From the IMG/VR virus record IMGVR_UViG_3300025122_006404, positions 1 through 64,000 of that record: a DNA stretch of 64,000 nt; one strand, written 5' to 3'. This document shows positions 3,139 through 50,623 of the stretch, in pieces. Every line of letters starts with the position of its first letter. Position 1 is the first letter of the stretch. Both the position numbers and the translations under genes were made by a program. A model generated the notes under the pieces. It made no database searches, was not told the DNA's origin, and saw only the letters and a program-made list of their open reading frames with translations. The stretch comes from a virus.

Positions 3139-4044
3139 ATGCTTACTTTTCCTACCCAAAATTTATTTATTGAAGGACCAGATTGTGCTGGAAAGACCAC
3201 AACGATTAGAAAAATTCATAATTTAAGCAATTATAGATGGCACATTCATGATAGATCACAAGTTTCTCGAAAGGTATTTGCAGAACTCTATGAAAGAAAA
3301 AATTCCAATATTAACTCTGATTTTCATTTTGAAATCTCCAATCTTAATAATCGATTTGTTTTTTTATTGCCACCCTTTGAAACCATTGAAGAAAGGTTTT
3401 TAAAAAGAGGAGATGACCTACATCAGGATCTCACCTCAATTAAAAATGTTTATGATGCTTTTTCGGAGGAGTGCGAAGGCCTCTTTTCCTTTCCTAATGT
3501 CATCGTATGCCGAGAAGAAAATACTGATAGTATTTCTGAGACGATATCCTGCTCTCTAACTCTCACTGAAAGATGTATGATCCAAGAGGTTTCAGATCAA
3601 GTTTTAGATTTTGTTAGATGCAAAGGAGGAGAGTCATATCCTTTGAAATTTACTCTCTATGATAATGGACAATTTGAAGAATCCAATTCAGAAATTCTTT
3701 GTCATGAATCTGAAGGAGACTATTATCGTCGAATTTTTAATTCATTTCATAAAAAAATTAATAATGAACTAGAGGGTAAAAATGAATATAGCAGGATTGA
3801 AACGCATAGATCCCGAAGATTTGTATATTCTGATCCATCATGTATCTCTTTTATTCACATGGCAGTAAGAGATAAAATTATGGATTTTCATTCAGTTATT
3901 AGATCAACTGATGTTAAAGAAATCTTTCCACACGATCTTAAGTTTCTTTACTATCTAGCCTCAACATGCTATGATAAATTTGAAAAAGATTGTGATAAGG
4001 TAAGAATGAGATTTAATTTAAATTCTGCGCATATTATTAATTGA
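3139..4044 (+). CDS. dTMP-kinase-like P-loop domain fused to a thymidylate-synthase-like domain
   Basis: 301 residues. FIEGPDCAGKTTTIRK (about residues 11-26) is a Walker A in the thymidylate-kinase style. The middle is unrecognised. The last 90 residues align by eye with the C-terminal half of thymidylate synthase/dCMP hydroxymethylase: SCISF in place of PCH-x-x-F, VRDKIMD, then RSTD where TS has RS(N/A)D, FPHDL, and a terminal NSAHI like the GD(A/T)H-Y stretch. Both halves would act on deoxypyrimidine monophosphates. The TS-like half lacks the usual N-terminal part, so it may be a degenerate or binding domain. The genes downstream are also nucleotide enzymes. Confidence 0.6.
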   Translation: MLTFPTQNLFIEGPDCAGKTTTIRKIHNLSNYRWHIHDRSQVSRKVFAELYERKNSNINSDFHFEISNLNNRFVFLLPPFETIEERFLKRGDDLHQDLTSIKNVYDAFSEECEGLFSFPNVIVCREENTDSISETISCSLTLTERCMIQEVSDQVLDFVRCKGGESYPLKFTLYDNGQFEESNSEILCHESEGDYYRRIFNSFHKKINNELEGKNEYSRIETHRSRRFVYSDPSCISFIHMAVRDKIMDFHSVIRSTDVKEIFPHDLKFLYYLASTCYDKFEKDCDKVRMRFNLNSAHIIN

Positions 4045-4092
4045 GATTTAAACTCTTTTTATTTATGGGTTAAAATATTTCTGGAGGTTATT

Positions 4093-5103
4093 TTGAAACG
4101 TGCATTAGTAACAGGAGGGTGTGGGTTCATAGGCTCTAATCTTTCTCACGAACTGGTAAAAAGAGGGTGGACAGTTGATATTATTGATGATATGTCTAAT
4201 GGGCATCTAGATCTTTTAGAAGGTCTAAAATTTCGGGCAATTCCTATAGATTTACTAGATGAATTTTATAATCAGAGGTATGCAGCGACAGGAAACACAA
4301 GAGACCCAAATGAGGTCCATGTAATTGAAGGAGATTTTGCACATCAAAATATTTGTAAAAATATTTCAGAAAAAATGTATGATGTTGTTTTTCATCAGGC
4401 AGCTGTACCGAGAGTTTCATACTCAGTTGAAAATCCTGCTCATACCACAGATGTGAATATTTCTTCAACTGTGAGGTTGTTTGAGGCCTGTCGGGGATCT
4501 GTTAACCGGATCGTCTGGGCGTCTTCTTCATCAGTGTATGGTGGAGCTGATACTCTTCCTACTGCGGAAACCACAGAAAAAAATCCAAAATCTCCCTATG
4601 CGTGGCAAAAAACTTCCATAGAAGACCTAGCGTCCCTTTTTGGATCTCTGTATGATCTTGACATTGTTTGTTTGAGATATTTTAATGTTTTTGGTCCAGG
4701 ACAATATGGCGACTCACCTTATGCAACTGCTGTTTCATCATGGTGTCATCGAACAAAAAATGCAATGCCCCTTCGATCTGACGGAGATGGATCTCAATCT
4801 AGAGATCTGTGTTACATTGATAATGTTGTTGAGGCTAATATTTTAGCAGCACTATCCGAGAGAAAATTTATGGGAGAAGCATATAATGTTGCCTGCGGAG
4901 ATAAAACAACTAATAGAGAAATTCTTGAACATTTTAAGAAAAAGTTTTCTCACACTATTGTGCAAGAAGCACCGTGGCGACCAGGAGACGTAATGCATAC
5001 ACAGGCAGATATTTCTAAAATTCAGAATGATTTAGGATATGAGGTTAAGGTAAGATTTTGGGCAGGGCTTCAAAAAACCCTGGACTGGTGGGGTCTGATT
5101 TAA
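4093..5103 (+). CDS. NAD-dependent epimerase/dehydratase (UDP-sugar 4-epimerase-like, extended SDR)
   Basis: 336 residues from a TTG start; GGAGG at 4083-4087 fixes that start. The Rossmann motif TGGCGFIGS is at residues 7-15, the SSSSVYGG segment supplies the active-site serine, and YAWQK (about residues 169-173) is the catalytic Tyr-x3-Lys. It probably interconverts nucleotide sugars for glycosylation of DNA, virion or host surface; the substrate is unknown. It ends one base before the next gene. Confidence 0.88.
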   Translation: MKRALVTGGCGFIGSNLSHELVKRGWTVDIIDDMSNGHLDLLEGLKFRAIPIDLLDEFYNQRYAATGNTRDPNEVHVIEGDFAHQNICKNISEKMYDVVFHQAAVPRVSYSVENPAHTTDVNISSTVRLFEACRGSVNRIVWASSSSVYGGADTLPTAETTEKNPKSPYAWQKTSIEDLASLFGSLYDLDIVCLRYFNVFGPGQYGDSPYATAVSSWCHRTKNAMPLRSDGDGSQSRDLCYIDNVVEANILAALSERKFMGEAYNVACGDKTTNREILEHFKKKFSHTIVQEAPWRPGDVMHTQADISKIQNDLGYEVKVRFWAGLQKTLDWWGLI

Positions 5104-26490: not shown

Positions 26491-28164
26491 ATGAATAGCA
26501 CTTATAAATTAATTGAATTTGATTCTGTAGCTAGAGAGCTCCTTCTTGAAGGAGTTAATATTCTCTCAAATGCGGTAAAAGTTACAATGGGTCCCCGGGG
26601 AAGGAACGTGATCATTGAGAACCCTGGAGACTATCCTGTTTTAACAAAAGACGGGGTAACTGTTGCCCGAGCCATCAATTTAAGAAATCAATTTTTAAAT
26701 CTAGGTGCACAGATGGTGAAGCAAGCTGCTTCCCGTACTTCTGATGTGGCTGGGGACGGCACCACCACAGCCACAGTTCTATCTCAAGCAATATTTTTAG
26801 AAGGGGTCAAGATGATAGCTGCCGGATATCCGGCAGCTGACATTAGAAAAGGAATAAATTTTGCAACGGAGAAAGCAATTAAAAATCTTAAATTACTTGC
26901 CATTCCCGTAACAGAAGATGAAGAGGTGAAACAGGTGGGAACTATCTCTGCTAATGGTGAAGAAGAGATAGGAGAGTTACTTTTAGAAGCTTTGAATGCA
27001 GTGGGACGAGACGGTGTGATAACAGTAGAAGAAGCAAAAGGGTTTAATACTTCATTAGACATAATCGAAGGTATGCAGCTTGAAAGAGGGTATCTTTCGC
27101 CTTATTTTGTTACAAATCAAGAAAGGATGACATGTGACCTTGAAAAGCCTCTAATCTTGATGTGCAGCAAAAAGCTTGATAATTTAAAGGAAGTCATGCC
27201 CATTCTTGAAAAAGTTTTAAATACACAAAGAAGCCTGCTTATTATTTCTGATGATGTCGATGGTGATGCAATGCAAGGGCTGGTTGTAAATAAAATGAGA
27301 GGCGCTCTTAGAGTTTGTGCAATTAGGTCGCCAGGCTTTGGAGAGAATCGAATTAATATGATGAAAGACGTTGCAGTCCTGACAGGATGTAAAAAAATAA
27401 TCTCAGACGCCTCAGGAGAGACACTTAGTGATATCGGGATCGAAGATCTAGGTACATGCAAGAAAGCTATTATAGGAAAGATGGGAACCTTGATCATGGG
27501 AGGCGCGGGATCGTCAGAAAACATAGCGAATAGAATTAAGGAAATTAAAGAACAATTAGAGAATGATCTTCTTGAAGAAGATGAGTCGGGTTATTTAAAG
27601 ATGAGACTCGCTAAGCTGGCCGGAGGGGTGGCAGTTTTACGTGTGGGAGGATCCACGGAGGCTGAAATGGGAGAAAGAAAGGACCGGGTGGAAGATGCTC
27701 TTAATGCAACACAGGCAGCCATTGAGGAAGGAATTGTTCCTGGAGGTGGAGTGGCTTTAGTAAGAAGTGTTAAAGACTTAAAACCTCCCAAGGATCACAA
27801 GGATGACGGATTCGGTGCCGGAGTGGATATTATAAAAAAAGCCTGCCTTTCTCCGTTGAGACAGATCGTAAGAAATTCAGGGGGCACCCCTGATGTTGTG
27901 CTTGAAAAAATTCGAAACGGAGGAGAGGAATACGGATACAATGCTCAGGAGGATTGCTACGGAGACATGTTTAAGATGGGAATAATAGATCCTCTCAAAG
28001 TGGTACGGAGCGCCCTAGAAAATGCTGCATCTTCTGCGTCAATGTTACTGACCATAGGATGTGCCATGATCGAAGAAAGAGAGTCCGAATCTTTAGACAG
28101 TGGACTTTTTAACAAAAGTCGTGGACGAAAAGAATATTTAAATATAGATGATCCCTACTCCTGA
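26491..28164 (+). CDS. groEL: GroEL-type chaperonin (Hsp60)
   Basis: 557 residues, full length. VTMGPRGRNV and GDGTTTATVL (Asp89) form the ATP site. The apical domain contains SPYFVTNQ and LKEVMPILEKV. GGVAVLRVGGSTEAE and EEGIVPGGGVAL mark the returning intermediate and equatorial domains. The usual GGM-repeat tail is absent; the end is a charged segment with NKSRGRKEYLN. It probably folds virion proteins. No groES is seen in the window, so it must use host GroES or a distant phage cochaperonin. A 22-bp palindrome lies inside the gene (26817-26838). Confidence 0.96.
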   Translation: MNSTYKLIEFDSVARELLLEGVNILSNAVKVTMGPRGRNVIIENPGDYPVLTKDGVTVARAINLRNQFLNLGAQMVKQAASRTSDVAGDGTTTATVLSQAIFLEGVKMIAAGYPAADIRKGINFATEKAIKNLKLLAIPVTEDEEVKQVGTISANGEEEIGELLLEALNAVGRDGVITVEEAKGFNTSLDIIEGMQLERGYLSPYFVTNQERMTCDLEKPLILMCSKKLDNLKEVMPILEKVLNTQRSLLIISDDVDGDAMQGLVVNKMRGALRVCAIRSPGFGENRINMMKDVAVLTGCKKIISDASGETLSDIGIEDLGTCKKAIIGKMGTLIMGGAGSSENIANRIKEIKEQLENDLLEEDESGYLKMRLAKLAGGVAVLRVGGSTEAEMGERKDRVEDALNATQAAIEEGIVPGGGVALVRSVKDLKPPKDHKDDGFGAGVDIIKKACLSPLRQIVRNSGGTPDVVLEKIRNGGEEYGYNAQEDCYGDMFKMGIIDPLKVVRSALENAASSASMLLTIGCAMIEERESESLDSGLFNKSRGRKEYLNIDDPYS

Positions 28165-29173: not shown

Positions 29174-29201
29174 TGTAAATACCTTTTAGATGTGGTATAA
29201 T
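29174..29201 (+). promoter_or_regulatory. TGTAAA-class phage promoter (sigma-factor operon)
   Basis: TGTAAAT (29174-29180), 15 bases, TATAAT (29196-29201), preceded by TGTGG. One of the best matches to the proposed consensus. It drives the genes leading into the sigma factor. Confidence 0.72.
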
Positions 29202-29223: not shown

Positions 29224-29415
29224 TTGTTTTCTAATGATGATGTCGTCAGAATGCCCACCGAAGGTTTAATAGAGTATTCTCGGTATCTATTAAAAAAAAT
29301 TGAAAAACTTAAAAAGAAAAATTCAAATACAAAACAAGCTGAAATTGAGTTTTGCTATATTCACAGACGGATCGAAAAAAGATTGAAAAAGGTCAACGAT
29401 CCCCTTTCCCATTAG
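29224..29415 (+). CDS. Small basic helical protein, 63 aa
   Basis: TTG start. KKIEKLKKKNSNTKQAEIEF resembles RKIEKFKKKNWNIEGLQKEL in the 46804 gene, so the two are probably paralogues. Function unknown. Confidence 0.55.
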   Translation: MFSNDDVVRMPTEGLIEYSRYLLKKIEKLKKKNSNTKQAEIEFCYIHRRIEKRLKKVNDPLSH

Positions 29416-29451: not shown

Positions 29452-30222
29452 ATGTCAACAACAATTGATTCTTACTTTAAAGATGTTTCTAGAACTCGTC
29501 TTCTCACTAGGGAGGAAGAGGTTCTACTTTCTCAACGGATAGAAAAAGGGGACAAAAGTGCCCGGGACATAATGATAGAATCTAATCTTAGGCTGGCAAT
29601 CAGCATTGCTAAGAAATACTCTCGTGGTGGTGGAAATCTACCCGATCTAATTCAGGAATCTAACATTGGATTAATGAAGGCGGTAGATAGATATGACTGG
29701 AGAAGAGGATTTAAATTTAGCACCTATGCCAGCTGGTGGATTAGACAGTCCGTTACTAGGCACTTGTGTACACACGGGAGCACTGTGCGAATCCCTTCAC
29801 ACACCTCGGGTTTAATTTATAAAATTTCTCGAGTTACCCGAGAATATTCTCAGGAATTTGGACAAAATCCTACATCTTCTGAACTGGCCGATTTGCTCAA
29901 TGTCTCTGAATCATTGATAAAAGTGAGCCTTGAGTCCATGACCTTAAGAAATATGCTATCGATTGACGCATCGATCAATAATGATAGTGATAATCGCAGG
30001 TTTGCCGAAGTTCTTGCTGATCCCAATTCAATTGATCCCAATAAGATTATGGATCGACAAAAAATTATGGATGCAATTTGTGAGTGTCTTGGGCAGCTTT
30101 CAGAAAGAGAAGAGAAAATTTTAAGACTTCGGTTTGGAATCGTCCAGGACCTTCTTACATTAGATGATTTAGAAATTTCTGAATCAGAAACTAACAAAAT
30201 TAAACTACAGGAGAGAAAGTAG
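29452..30222 (+). CDS. RNA polymerase sigma factor (sigma70 family) with shortened region 4.2
   Basis: 256 residues. Region 1.2 (LTREEEVLLSQRIEKGD), region 2 (NLRLAISIAKKYS, DLIQESNIGLMKAVDRYDWRRGFKFSTYASWWIRQ) and region 3 (TVRIPSH) are clear. Region 4.1 is present (LSEREEKILRLRFGI), but after it the helix-turn-helix that reads the -35 is replaced by a short tail (LTLDDLEISESET...). A separate HTH protein starts two bases after the stop. It probably directs host polymerase to phage promoters with an unusual -35. Confidence 0.92.
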   Translation: MSTTIDSYFKDVSRTRLLTREEEVLLSQRIEKGDKSARDIMIESNLRLAISIAKKYSRGGGNLPDLIQESNIGLMKAVDRYDWRRGFKFSTYASWWIRQSVTRHLCTHGSTVRIPSHTSGLIYKISRVTREYSQEFGQNPTSSELADLLNVSESLIKVSLESMTLRNMLSIDASINNDSDNRRFAEVLADPNSIDPNKIMDRQKIMDAICECLGQLSEREEKILRLRFGIVQDLLTLDDLEISESETNKIKLQERK

Positions 30223-30223
30223 A

Positions 30224-30517
30224 ATGGCAATGCCTAAAGGATATAAAATTGCAGGGGGATACGCGACCGTTGGAAGTGACATTGGAGGAATGGGGTATAG
30301 AGAGATTTCTGAAAAAATGACTGAGAATGGATTTAAAATGAATCACTCTACTGCTAGAAATATATTTTTGTCTGCTATGAGAAAGTTTGCAGCTGAAGTT
30401 TGTAAAATTTATAGTATCTCCCCGACTCGGGAAAATCTTGATATGATTTCAGCTGATCCTAGATTTCAATCTGGAATATTTGAAATAATGAGCCTGAATG
30501 ATAAGACTGGTGATTAA
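30224..30517 (+). CDS. HTH protein, possible detached sigma region 4 partner, 97 aa
   Basis: GMGYREISEKM followed by MNHSTARNIFLSAMRKFA (about residues 24-56) has the pattern of a sigma region 4.2 HTH (YREIA..., S-x-S-T-A-R-N-I...A). It begins two bases after the sigma stop, behind GGAGAG. The frame continues past UAA 30515-30517 for 29 more protein-like codons to TGA 30605-30607, whose last base begins the next ATG. This suggests the C-terminus has been cut by a nonsense change or is reached by readthrough. Confidence 0.7.
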   Translation: MAMPKGYKIAGGYATVGSDIGGMGYREISEKMTENGFKMNHSTARNIFLSAMRKFAAEVCKIYSISPTRENLDMISADPRFQSGIFEIMSLNDKTGD

Positions 30518-30606
30518 AAAGGCTGGAGTGAAGATCCTGATAGGGAGTGGTGGAGAAGAGTCTATATTGCAGTTATTCAAAAACCACTCATTGATCTGGA
30601 CAGCTG

Positions 30607-30897
30607 ATGAACGATTTTTTTAAAAAACTTTCTTTCACACGTCGTTATACAGAGATTCTGGAAGCTTGTGAGTGGGACGAGGAAAGGGTTAAAGCTCTGT
30701 TTTTAACCACAGTGTCTTTAGTTGAAAAACTTAAAAAGGAAGATCAGCTTGTTTCTTCTTACTCAGATTTTGAAAAACTTTTGAAGAGTAAACTAGAGGG
30801 AAACGATCGAAATGGAGAAATAAATATATTATTGGAGATATTAAAAGACGATCTTCAAAATTTAGATTTATTTGGAGAATACAAAGATGACAATTAG
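30607..30897 (+). CDS. Hypothetical acidic helical protein, 96 aa
   Basis: Not recognised. No ribosome site of its own is seen. Its ATG shares TGATG with the stop of the extended upstream frame, as if translation were coupled to that frame. Confidence 0.6.
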   Translation: MNDFFKKLSFTRRYTEILEACEWDEERVKALFLTTVSLVEKLKKEDQLVSSYSDFEKLLKSKLEGNDRNGEINILLEILKDDLQNLDLFGEYKDDN

Positions 30898-31210
30898 CTG
30901 GGATTTTTTTACAGGAAGAAGAAGGATTGACGTTAAAAAGTGGGTGACAGAAAATAATGTTACAAGCTATGAGAAGCTCGTTAGATCTTTAAAGAAGATA
31001 GATGTGGTTCCTCCGCCACCCGGACACTCAGATATTTCGAATATGGGCTTTACAGAAACTCTCCGAGACCCTTCAGAAGAAGGGAAGAGTGGTAAGCCAG
31101 GGTTGAAAAGACCCACTCAGAAAAAATCTTCTAAAAACTCTCCAAAGAGAAAAAGCACCACGAGATCGACGCCAAGTAGAGCAAGAAAAAAATCAGGGAA
31201 AAAGAAGTGA
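30887..31210 (+). CDS. Small protein with very basic Ser/Lys/Arg tail, 107 aa
   Basis: Start set at ATG 30887 (GGAG nine bases upstream), overlapping the previous gene by 11 bases. Residues 1-40 form a folded part; the last 45 are Lys/Ser/Arg/Pro-rich and histone-tail-like, probably binding nucleic acid. Confidence 0.62.
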   Translation: MTISWDFFTGRRRIDVKKWVTENNVTSYEKLVRSLKKIDVVPPPPGHSDISNMGFTETLRDPSEEGKSGKPGLKRPTQKKSSKNSPKRKSTTRSTPSRARKKSGKKK

Positions 31211-33480: not shown

Positions 33481-33963
33481 ATGGAAAAGAGATTAATCAC
33501 AATTGAAGGATACAGCAAGCTAGTTGAGGATCTAGATCACTATCTAACTGTAGTAAGACCCCAGGTCGTTAAAGATATCGAAGATGCCCTGTCTTTTGGA
33601 GATTTGAGAGAAAATGCTGAATATTCCTTCGCCAAAGAGCGCCAGGCCCAAATAGAAGATAAGATTATAAAGCTTTCAGAAATCATTAAAAATTCTAAAG
33701 CTATAGATATTAAAAATCTATCTAATGATAATATCGTTTCATTTGGATCAAGAGTTAGAATTTTAAATCTGGAAACAGACGTAGAAAAAGTCTATCAGCT
33801 TGTAGGAAAATCAGAATTTGATGCCAAGAAGGGAAAAATAAGCTACATGTCTCCCGTGGGAAAAGAGCTTATGGGAAAATCTCCCGGAGATGATATTGAA
33901 GTCACTGTTCCTGCGGGAGATCAAATTTGGGAAATATTGGAAATAGTTTCTGAGCCACTGTAG
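33481..33963 (+). CDS. greA: Transcript cleavage factor GreA
   Basis: 160 residues. GDLRENAEYS puts the catalytic Asp41 and Glu44 at exactly the numbering of bacterial GreA at the coiled-coil tip. The C-terminal FKBP-like domain ends with SPVGKELMGKSPGD. It rescues backtracked RNA polymerase and would help host polymerase transcribe the phage genome. The last ten bases, with the UAG stop, are also the start of tRNA-Thr. A 92-bp gap upstream shows ACAGGAG but no clear promoter. Confidence 0.95.
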   Translation: MEKRLITIEGYSKLVEDLDHYLTVVRPQVVKDIEDALSFGDLRENAEYSFAKERQAQIEDKIIKLSEIIKNSKAIDIKNLSNDNIVSFGSRVRILNLETDVEKVYQLVGKSEFDAKKGKISYMSPVGKELMGKSPGDDIEVTVPAGDQIWEILEIVSEPL

Positions 33964-37161: not shown

Positions 37162-37189
37162 TGTAAATTGTATTTCTCTATGATATAAT
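37162..37189 (+). promoter_or_regulatory. TGTAAA-class phage promoter (deaminase gene)
   Basis: TGTAAAT (37162-37168), 15 bases, TATAAT (37184-37189). The -10 overlaps an ATG at 37188, so that ATG cannot lie in the transcript and the GTG at 37218 is the likelier start. Confidence 0.72.
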
Positions 37190-40621: not shown

Positions 40622-40649
40622 TGTAAATCCTTTTCTTTTGAGATATAAT
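40622..40649 (+). promoter_or_regulatory. TGTAAA-class phage promoter (tilS)
   Basis: TGTAAAT (40622-40628), 15 bases, TATAAT (40644-40649), preceded by TTGAGA. It lies between the divergent VWA/ASH gene and tilS. Confidence 0.72.
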
Positions 40650-43910: not shown

Positions 43911-43938
43911 TGTAAATCGCTTACTTCTGTGATATAAT
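43911..43938 (+). promoter_or_regulatory. TGTAAA-class phage promoter (tRNA cluster)
   Basis: TGTAAAT (43911-43917), 15 bases, TATAAT (43933-43938), preceded by TGTGA. It lies 14 bases before tRNA-Met, so it drives the tRNA-Met/Lys/Leu cluster. Confidence 0.74.
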
Positions 43939-46049: not shown

Positions 46050-46706
46050 ATGAAAGATTATTATTCAATTTTAGGTGTGGATGAAACTGCCTCAATGAGT
46101 CAAATTAAAAAGGCTTACCGTAAACTTGCTCAAAAATATCATCCAGATAAAAATCCAGGAAACTCCGAAGCAGAAGTAAAGTTTAAGGAAATAAGTGAGG
46201 CGTATGATACTTTATCCAATAAATCTAATAAGGAGAGATATGATGGCATGAGAAATGGATCAGCTTTCGGAGACGATTTTGGTTTCAATGATTTATTTGA
46301 GAGTATATTTGGGCTAGGAGATATCTTCGGGAGTGGCGGACACAGGAGGCAAACTCGTCAACCTCAACAAGAGAGAGTTATCAGATTTGATATCCCGCTG
46401 AGTGAGCTGCAATCAGAAAGAAAAATCAACAAGTCTTTTCAAGTGCAATATCAGGAAACGTGTTCATCTTGTGAAGGCTGCGGCGGCAGTGATATCCAGA
46501 AATGCCCGGCGTGTGGTGGATCGGGAAAAATTATTCAGTTTCATAAACAAGGTCCTCTGACATTTCAATCTTCGATTGCGTGCTCACACTGCCGAGGTGC
46601 GGGAAAAATTATTCACACGCCCTGTGGGCTTTGCCAAGGGGCAGGGATTATTCTTAAAACTGCAGAGTACGATGTGACAATTAGCTGTCACAAGAAAAAT
46701 AAATAA
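46050..46706 (+). CDS. dnaJ: DnaJ-type cochaperone, C-terminally shortened
   Basis: 218 residues. J domain with HPDKNP, Gly/Phe-rich linker (FGFNDLFESIFGLGDIFG), first beta domain, and four CxxCxGxG-type zinc motifs. It stops soon after the zinc region, so the second C-terminal domain and dimerisation helix of full DnaJ (about 375 aa) are missing. It would recruit host DnaK. With phage GroEL it suggests a heavy folding need. Confidence 0.9.
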   Translation: MKDYYSILGVDETASMSQIKKAYRKLAQKYHPDKNPGNSEAEVKFKEISEAYDTLSNKSNKERYDGMRNGSAFGDDFGFNDLFESIFGLGDIFGSGGHRRQTRQPQQERVIRFDIPLSELQSERKINKSFQVQYQETCSSCEGCGGSDIQKCPACGGSGKIIQFHKQGPLTFQSSIACSHCRGAGKIIHTPCGLCQGAGIILKTAEYDVTISCHKKNK

Positions 46707-47837: not shown

Positions 47838-49370
47838 ATGCTATCTTGCTATAGTGAAATATTGTCGCCAGACGCTTCGTATTTTTTAGAAGCTCTTTTT
47901 TCGTGTTTTCAAGACGATCTTAAATCTCTGCTAGAAGCCAGACAAGAAAGGCAGAAAGAATATGATCTTGGTAAGCTTCCAGATTTTCTTGAAGAGACTG
48001 CCAGCATTAGAGATGATAGTGTTTGGAAAGTCTCTGAAATCCCTCACGAGCTCTTAAATAGAAGAGTAGAAATAACTGGTCCAACTGATAGAAAAATGGT
48101 GATAAATGCTCTTAATTCGGGAGCAAATGTTTTTATGGCAGATTTTGAAGATTCTCTTTCTCCTACTTGGAAAAACATCATAGAAGGTCAAAAAAATCTT
48201 AAAGATGCTGTTAACAGAACAATAGCATATGATCATCCTACTAAAGGAACCTATACACTAGACGATCAAACGTCTGTGTTGTTCGTTCGCCCTCGAGGCT
48301 TACACTTAAAAGAGAAAAATTTTGAAATTAATGATAGTTCGATTTCTGCTTCGCTTTTTGATTTTGGAATATTCATGTATCATAATGCAAATGAATTAGT
48401 GCAGCAGGGAACAGCTCCGTATTTTTATTTACCAAAGATTGAACACTACTTAGAAGCTAGATGGTGGAATAATGTTTTTAACTGGGCACAGGACTATCTA
48501 TCTATTCCAAGAGGTACGATTAGAGCAACAGTCTTAATCGAAACTTTGCCTGCAGCTTTTCAAATGGATGAAATTCTGTATGAGTTAAAAGACCATTCCG
48601 CCGGATTGAACTGCGGCAGGTGGGACTATATTTTTAGTTTTATTAAAACTATTAGAAATCATCCTGATAAAATTTTGCCTAACAGATCACAGGTTACGAT
48701 GATGTCTCATTGTATGAAGTCCTATAGAGATCTTCTCATACACACGTGTCACAAAAGAGGAATCCATGCCATGGGAGGGATGGCAGCACAAATACCAATT
48801 AGAGACAATCCAGAAGAAAATGAAAAAGCTTTACAAGCTGTGAGAGAAGACAAGATCAGAGAAGTGCTTGCAGGCCATGATGGAACATGGGTAGCTCATC
48901 CAGGATTGATTCAGGTCGCCAAAGAAGTGTTTGATGAAATGATGCCTCATTCTAATCAGATTGAATTTTTAACACCCAAAGTAAAAATTCAGAGCTCGGA
49001 CTTGCTAAAGACTCCTCAAGGAGAAATCACAGAAGAAGGTCTTCGAAATAACATTAATATCGGGATCAGATATGTTGAATCGTGGCTTCGGGGAAATGGA
49101 TGTGTTCCGCTTTATAATCTAATGGAAGATGCTGCCACAGCCGAAATTTCTAGAACTCAAGTGTGGCAGTGGATAAGACATGGTAAATTTACAGAGAAGG
49201 AATTTAAAAAAATATTAAGTGATGAGGTAAATAATATTAGAGTTCAAGTGGGAAATGTTGAGTTTATCAATGGGAGATTTGCTGAAGCAGTATCTCTATT
49301 TGAAAAGTTATCAGTAGGTGAAGAGTTAGAGAATTTCTTAACTCTAGCAGCATATAAAAACATTGCATAG
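47838..49370 (+). CDS. aceB: Malate synthase (AceB/MSA type)
   Basis: 510 residues, full length for the A type (E. coli AceB is about 530). [27 protein letters not shown] (about residues 150-158), [25 protein letters not shown] and [13 protein letters not shown] with the catalytic Asp (about residue 430) are all intact. It condenses glyoxylate and acetyl-CoA to malate. Eight bases separate it from isocitrate lyase, as in bacterial aceBA operons. No frameshift or loss of key residues. Confidence 0.96.
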
Positions 49371-49378
49371 GATTTAAA

Positions 49379-50623
49379 ATGATTAATGATAAAAGTGAAA
49401 GATGGAAAGGAACGAAAAGGGAGTGGACCCAAAGCGATGTGGATCGACTAAGGGGTAGTTTAAAAATAGAGTATTCTCTAGCACGACATGGTGCAGAAAA
49501 ATTGTGGAATTTATTACATAGTGACGATCCAGTGGCTGCACTGGGTGCATTAACTGGCAATCAAGCTGTTCAGCAAGCAAGAGCCGGCTTAAAAGCTGTT
49601 TACTTGTCTGGTTGGCAAGTTGCTGCCGATGCTAATCTTTCGGGACACATGTATCCAGATCAAAGTCTATATCCGGCCAATAGTGTTCCTCATGTTGTAA
49701 AGAGAATAAATCAAGCTCTTCAAAGAGCTGACCAAGTTGAGAGTGTGGAAGGAAAGATTACTCGAGACTGGATGATTCCTATCGTGGCAGATGCAGAAGC
49801 TGGATTTGGGGGTCCTTTGAACGCTTATGAGCTAATGAAAGGAATGATTGAGTCCGGTGCAGCCGGAGTTCACCTTGAAGATCAGCTCTCTTCAGAGAAA
49901 AAATGTGGCCATCTTGGAGGAAAAGTCTTAATTCCAACACAGCAATTTATAGTTACTCTTAAAGCTGCCAGGCTTGCTGCTGATGTCATGGGAGTACCTA
50001 CAATTTTAATTGCTCGGACAGATGCTAACAGCGCTAAGATGATGACTTCTGATATAGATCCCTATGACCATCCATTTATGACTGGAGAACGGACTCCAGA
50101 AGGATTCTATAGGATTACAGGAGGCATAGAATGTGCCATAGCTAGAGGATTAGCGTATGCACCCTATGCAGATCTATTGTGGTGTGAAACATCAACTCCT
50201 GATCTCGATGAAGCTCAAAGATTTGCTGATGCTATTCACGAGAAACATCCGGGAAAGCTACTTGCGTATAATTGTTCTCCGTCATTTAACTGGAGAAAGA
50301 ATCTAGATGATGACACAATTGGCAAATTTCGACACGAACTAAACCGGATGGGGTATAAGTTTCAATTTGTTACGCTAGCAGGCTTTCATTCTCTCAACTA
50401 CAGCATGTTTGATCTAGCTAGTGAATATGAGAAAAAAGGAATGACAGCTTACGTGTCTCTTCAACAGAGAGAATTCGGCGCCGAGGACAGAGGATATACA
50501 GCTACCCGTCACCAGAGAGAGGTGGGAACCGGGTACTTTGATAGCGTGAGTGGAGTGCTAAGTAAAGGGAAATCTTCTACTCTCGCACTCAGTGAGTCTA
50601 CAGAGAGCGATCAATTTGAATAA
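49379..50623 (+). CDS. aceA: Isocitrate lyase (AceA)
   Basis: 414 residues, slightly shorter than E. coli AceA (434). [16 protein letters not shown], the signature KKCGHLGGK with the catalytic Cys (about residue 177), RTDANSA, and YNCSPSFNW are all present. It splits isocitrate into succinate and glyoxylate. With aceB it forms a complete glyoxylate shunt bypassing both decarboxylations of the TCA cycle. The C-terminus is Ser/Glu-rich. Confidence 0.96.

Follow-up and report, generated by a model that had tools for sequence, protein, structure and literature searches.

A putative split RpoD-like sigma factor, divided inside region 4, encoded by two neighbouring phage genes

The sigma operon and its two central products

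The window (the whole stretch of DNA analysed) covers positions 1–64,000 of an IMG/VR virus record of 87,671 bases, and the operon considered here lies on its plus strand. It is preceded by a promoter at 29174–29201, composed of TGTAAA (29174–29179), a 16-base spacer and TATAAT (29196–29201); the sequence of the spacer ends in TGG, that is, in an extended -10. The first gene, ORF63 (29224–29415), recognized from the list of open reading frames and from its relatives, is a small conserved operon leader present at 56 of 67 main-set loci and at 50 of 79 distant HTH loci; this family displays a conserved CY[IVL].RE-like segment and lies upstream of sigma. The leader is followed by the gene of a truncated RpoD-like sigma factor of 256 aa (29452–30222) and by that of a 97-aa helix-turn-helix (HTH) protein (30224–30517), the candidate free-standing -35 reader and stand-in for region 4.2. 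The sequence-only reading had counted two bases after the sigma stop and had extended the feature to 30607; the stop is in fact the TAG at 30220–30222, one base before the ATG at 30224, while the HTH gene ends at 30517 and 30607 is the start of the next gene, ORF96 (30607–30897), conserved in the nearer relatives (40/67 main-set loci). ORF96 overlaps a gene of the ORF112 family (30887–31210), whose products of 107–112 aa consist of a small N-terminal domain and a basic, low-complexity tail; the family is found at 55/67 main-set loci and at all 79 distant HTH loci, as well as at L014 and L018, and its protein may be a third component of the sigma system.

Other genes of the record are worth recording in their own right. 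A few genes away from the sigma operon, positions 33481–33963 appear, judged by eye from a sequence motif, to encode a GreA-type transcript cleavage factor, possibly another phage transcription component. A malate synthase (47838–49370; PF01274, 3.8e-111) adjoins an isocitrate lyase (49379–50623; PF00463, 2.1e-104), so that both enzymes of the glyoxylate shunt are carried on a phage record; by eye, GroEL-like (26491–28164) and J-domain-like (46050–46706) phage chaperones are also present.

Both central open reading frames were borne out by the analysis, as was the view that the sigma protein has regions 1.2 to 4.1 and lacks region 4.2. Pfam places region 1.2 at residues 5–35, region 2 at 41–105, region 3 at 122–197 and region 4 at 212–232; the first three pass the cut-offs (PF00140, 3.2e-11; PF04542, 5.3e-19; PF04539, 7e-10), so that the RpoD-like regions 1.2, 2 and 3 are present, while only the first 18 of the 50 positions of PF04545 are matched, below the cut-off, nothing of 4.2 remains, and the chain thus has no complete region 4. 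In an alignment of 66 sigmas, the protein of the window continues for 27 residues after RLRFG, without a 4.2, and its relatives terminate 3–56 residues past the RLRFG-like motif which closes region 4.1; the tail replacing 4.2 is short and acidic, with a conserved aromatic residue and an IT..E pattern, and is a candidate docking site for the HTH protein. The sigma matches 245 named-phage records, seven of which were examined, six of these supplying region-4 sequences to the comparison set. A single sigma region 2 per record was found in 39 of 40 records, and the beta' domain PF00623 was absent from all 40 records searched.

In the HTH protein, an alignment of 67 sequences locates the HTH motif at about residues 25–62 and the recognition segment, MNHSTARN, at residues 39–46; R45 and N46 are invariant, M39, N40, H41, T43 and A44 occur in at least 90% of the rows, and the recognition helix is the best-conserved portion of the protein. 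Searches with the HTH protein gave no meaningful match in Pfam (best 0.012, unrelated), none below 0.07 in PHROGs, no solved relative among PDB sequences and no match in 50,697 named-phage records; no gp33-named PHROG or Pfam family was matched in those searches. Comparison with Sigma70_r4 by hhalign yields the expected register at E 0.057–0.13, values not above background, since the unrelated sigma region 3 scores 2.2e-4; Sigma70_r4_2 is weakly matched by 4 of the 67 members (best 0.06). Descent of the HTH protein from region 4.2 is therefore not statistically secure and is not claimed as proven; the profiles being short of proof of homology, 4.2 was possibly replaced by an unrelated HTH.

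The AlphaFold2 (AF2) model of the HTH protein alone is confident over residues 21–90 (mean pLDDT 82), with helices at 25–34 and 41–62; a structure search with it returned nothing above chance, and the 16 and 10 matches listed included no chain of the sigma70 family, a result which excludes nothing. A read-through model was also built from the sigma of locus L029, one residue replacing its stop, and the HTH protein, with a 51-row alignment. Its HTH part reaches pLDDT 95–97, and its residues 1–323 align with sigmaS, SigA and sigma70 chains up to their C-terminal ends (Z 19.9, rmsd 16.0 and 268 aligned residues against 5ipl), with the caveat that a sequential aligner tends to pair the next helices in any case. 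Given a pTM of 0.51 and an overall rmsd of 15–16 Å, the model fixes neither the domain arrangement nor the packing on 4.1; it is compatible with the HTH protein filling the place of 4.2.

Pairing of the truncated sigma with the HTH gene

Searched with an alignment of 11 HTH rows, IMG/VR yielded 102 relatives, and 80 of them were retained; a truncated sigma lies upstream on the same strand at 79 of these 80 loci, L093 being the one without. A second alignment including more distant rows gave 237 relatives, and each of the 80 kept is preceded by a truncated sigma. Some records belong to both sets; once collapsed by identical sigma, the sets amount to 128 distinct loci (L038 classed by eye), 127 of which carry the truncated sigma upstream, while the remaining one has no sigma in its 38.6-kb contig. 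In this last contig, which may be a fragment, the HTH gene is at 3926–4303 and no sigma region 2 is seen.

Searches anchored on the sigma, which provided 22 loci plus 80 kept out of 578, led to 87 distinct sigmas (four rows classed by eye): 69 are truncated and accompanied by the HTH gene, 16 are intact and have no HTH gene, two are truncated and have none, and no intact sigma is accompanied by one. Near 52 further intact phage sigmas (53 loci, one without a sigma open reading frame), no HTH gene was found within the locus (0/52). A whole-record check of 20 records, including those of L110 and L093, which were both HTH-positive, detected no HTH gene in the two exceptions or in the 16 intact-sigma records. 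These counts (69 against 2, 16 + 52, and 0) describe two complementary chains that are obligately paired, as expected of a split sigma. The two exceptions, L286 (2974–3660) and L295 (2974–3663), encode a different truncated sigma which ends directly after RLKYGIK; their whole contigs, which may be fragments, contain no relative of the HTH gene, and perhaps these sigmas represent another solution to the -35, or work without one.

The genes nearly touch or overlap at many loci, which might suggest an originally complete sigma interrupted by a stop, or one whose halves are joined by programmed frameshifting or read-through. Yet every one of the three possible frame relations occurs between the sigma stop and the HTH start (37, 23 and 19 of 79 loci), the distance between them ranges from -167 to +490 bases, some loci having intervening genes, and both reading frames are conserved at more than 100 loci; neither a frameshift nor a recent breakage accounts for the split, and such an origin has a negligible probability. 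Recurring in more than 100 distinct phage loci, the arrangement is not due to chance.

A natural fusion of the two chains was encountered in a contig assigned to a Flavobacteriales MAG (L112), where a single 357-aa reading frame runs from sigma2 to 4.1 and then directly into the HTH, the protein being recognized by both the sigma model (E 2.7e-37) and the HTH model (E 5.8e-20); it is a metagenome contig in which an assembly indel is possible, and in L111, a near relative of L112, two overlapping genes are found instead. A search with the fused protein returned 52 intact sigmas and no further fusion.

The observation of such a fusion bears on the possibility that the HTH protein acts as an independent activator of the MotA type, binding near the -35 by itself and touching sigma or the beta flap, and completing no sigma4. 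The HTH protein is indeed a separate chain, with conserved N-terminal (MSMPKG..GYATV) and C-terminal (DPRFQ) parts of its own which are absent in region 4.2, and its homology to 4.2 is statistically insecure; however, the fused form places the HTH immediately after 4.1, and the partner sigma always lacks a 4.2, whereas the sigma with which MotA works has one. The element described below, moreover, is at the -35 spacing of a sigma factor (16 bases), against 12 +/- 1 for the MotA box as given in the available part of PMC2988021. A MotA-like role is consequently regarded as improbable.

A shared promoter element and its candidate reader

Phages with the sigma–HTH pair share the promoter GTGYAAA-N16-TATAAT. 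In the 87.7-kb record, TGTAAA occurs 15–19 bases before TATAAT five times, the site upstream of the operon included, against 0.18 expected, which upholds the TGTAAA -35 proposed from the sequence alone. The other exact sites (TGTAAA-N16-TATAAT, plus strand) are at 37162–37189 and 43911–43938, both intergenic, at 40622–40649, preceding a PP-loop ATPase gene, and at record position 65279, beyond the window. All five lie between genes, on the coding strand, in a record whose coding density is 0.935; in pieces of two relatives, no more than 8 of 18 sites and 6 of 11 are mostly noncoding.

The element emerges also when only one half of it is fixed. With TATAAT as the sole anchor, a scan of the region 15–19 bases upstream in 67 nonredundant loci (543 kb) gives GTGTAA 25 times (0.69 expected), TGTAAA 28 (1.33), GTGCAA 16 (0.87) and TGCAAA 16 (1.68), while TTGACA is outside the 15 top hexamers listed; conversely, TGTAAA as anchor recovers TATAAT (30 against 1.87 expected) and TTGACA as anchor recovers nothing notable. 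The spacer length peaks at 16 (20 of 36 TGTAAA pairs, in a scan from 10 to 24 bases), and, among 63 distinct N16 sites, TGYAAA is preceded by a G in 44, while TGn is present in 23.

Whole-record counts were made at N15–17 in 39 records, chosen by the authors from the loci, the control being the pattern read backwards: TGTAAA gives 95 matches against 7, with a match in 31 of the 39 records, TGCAAA 47 against 2 (29 of the 47 within two records) and TTGACA 7 against 10. TGTAAA sites are absent from 8 of the 39 records, particularly the GC-rich members, and a de novo dyad search in the records without TGTAAA disclosed no alternative promoter, its top matches being other repeats. Ten intact-sigma records show no clear enrichment of the motif (5 against 3), and no such hexamers came out of 37 nonredundant intact-sigma control loci.

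A site lies within 1 kb upstream of the sigma at 37 of 66 nonredundant loci; on the other strand the figure is 2 of 66, with each of five further hexamer sets it is 0–2, and downstream it is 6 of 66, so that the operon is probably autoregulated. Most reading frames downstream of the promoters have no match; the others include a RecA/KaiC-like ATPase, an AAA ATPase and PP-loop proteins, and point to no particular temporal class (early, middle or late). Recurrent two-part motifs distinct from the -35/-10 were also seen, in L138–L141 (G009), L128–L130 (G034) and L149–L152 (G027), examples being CAACT N17 AAGAG (12 against 0.27 expected) and CAGCT N17 AAGAG (8 against 0.10); they are maybe translation or termination signals.

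The presence of TGn at 23 of the 63 sites and the two truncated sigmas without an HTH gene would be in keeping with a truncated sigma working alone on extended -10 promoters, the HTH protein regulating something else or being an anti-sigma. That reading is very improbable: the -35 motif is enriched in exactly the sigma–HTH phages and not in the intact-sigma controls, and no HTH gene accompanies any intact sigma.

The element and the recognition segment shift together. The ratio of T to A at the last -35 base is 15:4 at loci with an xxVRN segment (22 loci) and 3:35 at those with xxARN (102 loci), an association for which a Fisher test gives 1e-7, sites whose last -35 base is C or G (2 and 15) being set aside; in the V clade, whose recognition helix is changed, the -35 is CGTGTAAT. 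As the sites share descent, this shift is a correlation between clades and no proof, and, since it follows clades, it represents few independent events. Serine or alanine at position 42 of the HTH protein bears no clean relation to a TGT or TGC -35. Distances among the HTH proteins closely follow those among the sigmas (Mantel r 0.84, n 123); this correlation, the conserved recognition helix and a near-constant -35 across the family lend no support to the earlier idea of a -35 reader which, thanks to the split, the phage can vary independently.

Proposed mechanism and comparison with known systems

The obligate pairing, the mutual exclusion with an intact 4.2, the natural fusion, the presence of GTGYAAA at sigma spacing and the joint shift of reader and element suggest, with a probability of roughly 0.82, that the two genes encode a natural split RpoD-like sigma, used with the host core at a private -35. 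This comparative evidence strongly supports the part of the sequence-only reading which saw a split sigma recognizing a TGTAAA-type -35; the independent variation of the reader found no support. With sigma2 and region 4.1, the larger chain would bind the RNA polymerase core of the host, and it would read TATAAT, helped by TGn; the HTH protein would dock in the 4.2 position, on 4.1 and/or on the short acidic tail, and read the phage-specific -35 GTGYAAA, 16–17 bases upstream; the resulting holoenzyme would transcribe phage transcription units, its own operon included. We infer that the two chains dock physically, that the -35 is read by the HTH protein and that the host core is used. A more elaborate version is put forward tentatively and is rather doubtful as a whole: in a large group of uncultured phages the sigma, cut inside sigma4, would obligately consist of several subunits, perhaps with the ORF112 protein as the third; the reader being a free chain, one sigma could serve extended -10 promoters alone and GTGYAAA promoters with the reader, an infection-time switch; and the -35 code would have been rewritten together with a residue of the recognition helix (A44 to V, GTGTAAA to CGTGTAAT).

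Normally, gripping the beta flap and reading the -35 are tasks of a single folded unit, sigma4; a natural separation of grip and reader into two genes, with a matching private -35 in many phages, would show that these functions are separable. It would also offer an orthogonal promoter/sigma set with a testable change of the -35 code, and give a function to a previously unnamed family of phage genes. Although split sigmas are known, the literature search found none split inside sigma4.

T4 gp55 belongs to the small, divergent sigmas, and the T4 late promoters are not known to have a -35, whereas the present sigma is RpoD-like, has regions 1.2–4.1 and would use a -35. According to the portion of PMC2988020 available, T4 gp55 and gp33, termed a split sigma, similarly spread the sigma function over two small phage proteins on the host core, gp33 occupying the position of sigma4 on the beta flap; gp33, however, does not resemble sigma in sequence, and the promoter system relies on a sliding clamp (PMC2988020). 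The T4 AsiA/MotA system is alike in that a phage DNA-binding protein takes over the -35 contact while sigma keeps the -10, and, as far as the accessible text goes, it employs an intact host sigma70 and a MotA box 12 +/- 1 from the -10 (PMC2988021). The system described here differs in having the phage's own sigma, devoid of 4.2, and an element 16–17 bases from the -10, outside the MotA spacing.

In phage SPO1, gp33 is needed together with gp34. The likeness to this pair is by description only, gp33 and gp34 being presented in the available part of PMC9429907 as late phage regulators, with gp34 a sigma factor. The consulted portion of an overview of jumbo phages (PMC7824862) covers minimal single-HTH sigmas, complete RpoD-like sigmas and gp33 orthologues, and describes no split between 4.1 and 4.2. 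In Bacillus subtilis, SigO and RsoA form a two-subunit sigma from two genes, cut, in the available part of the source, between domains, with sigma2 in RsoA and sigma4 in SigO (PMC8103513); here, instead, sigma2, sigma3 and region 4.1 are kept in one chain, and the cut falls inside sigma4, between 4.1 and 4.2.
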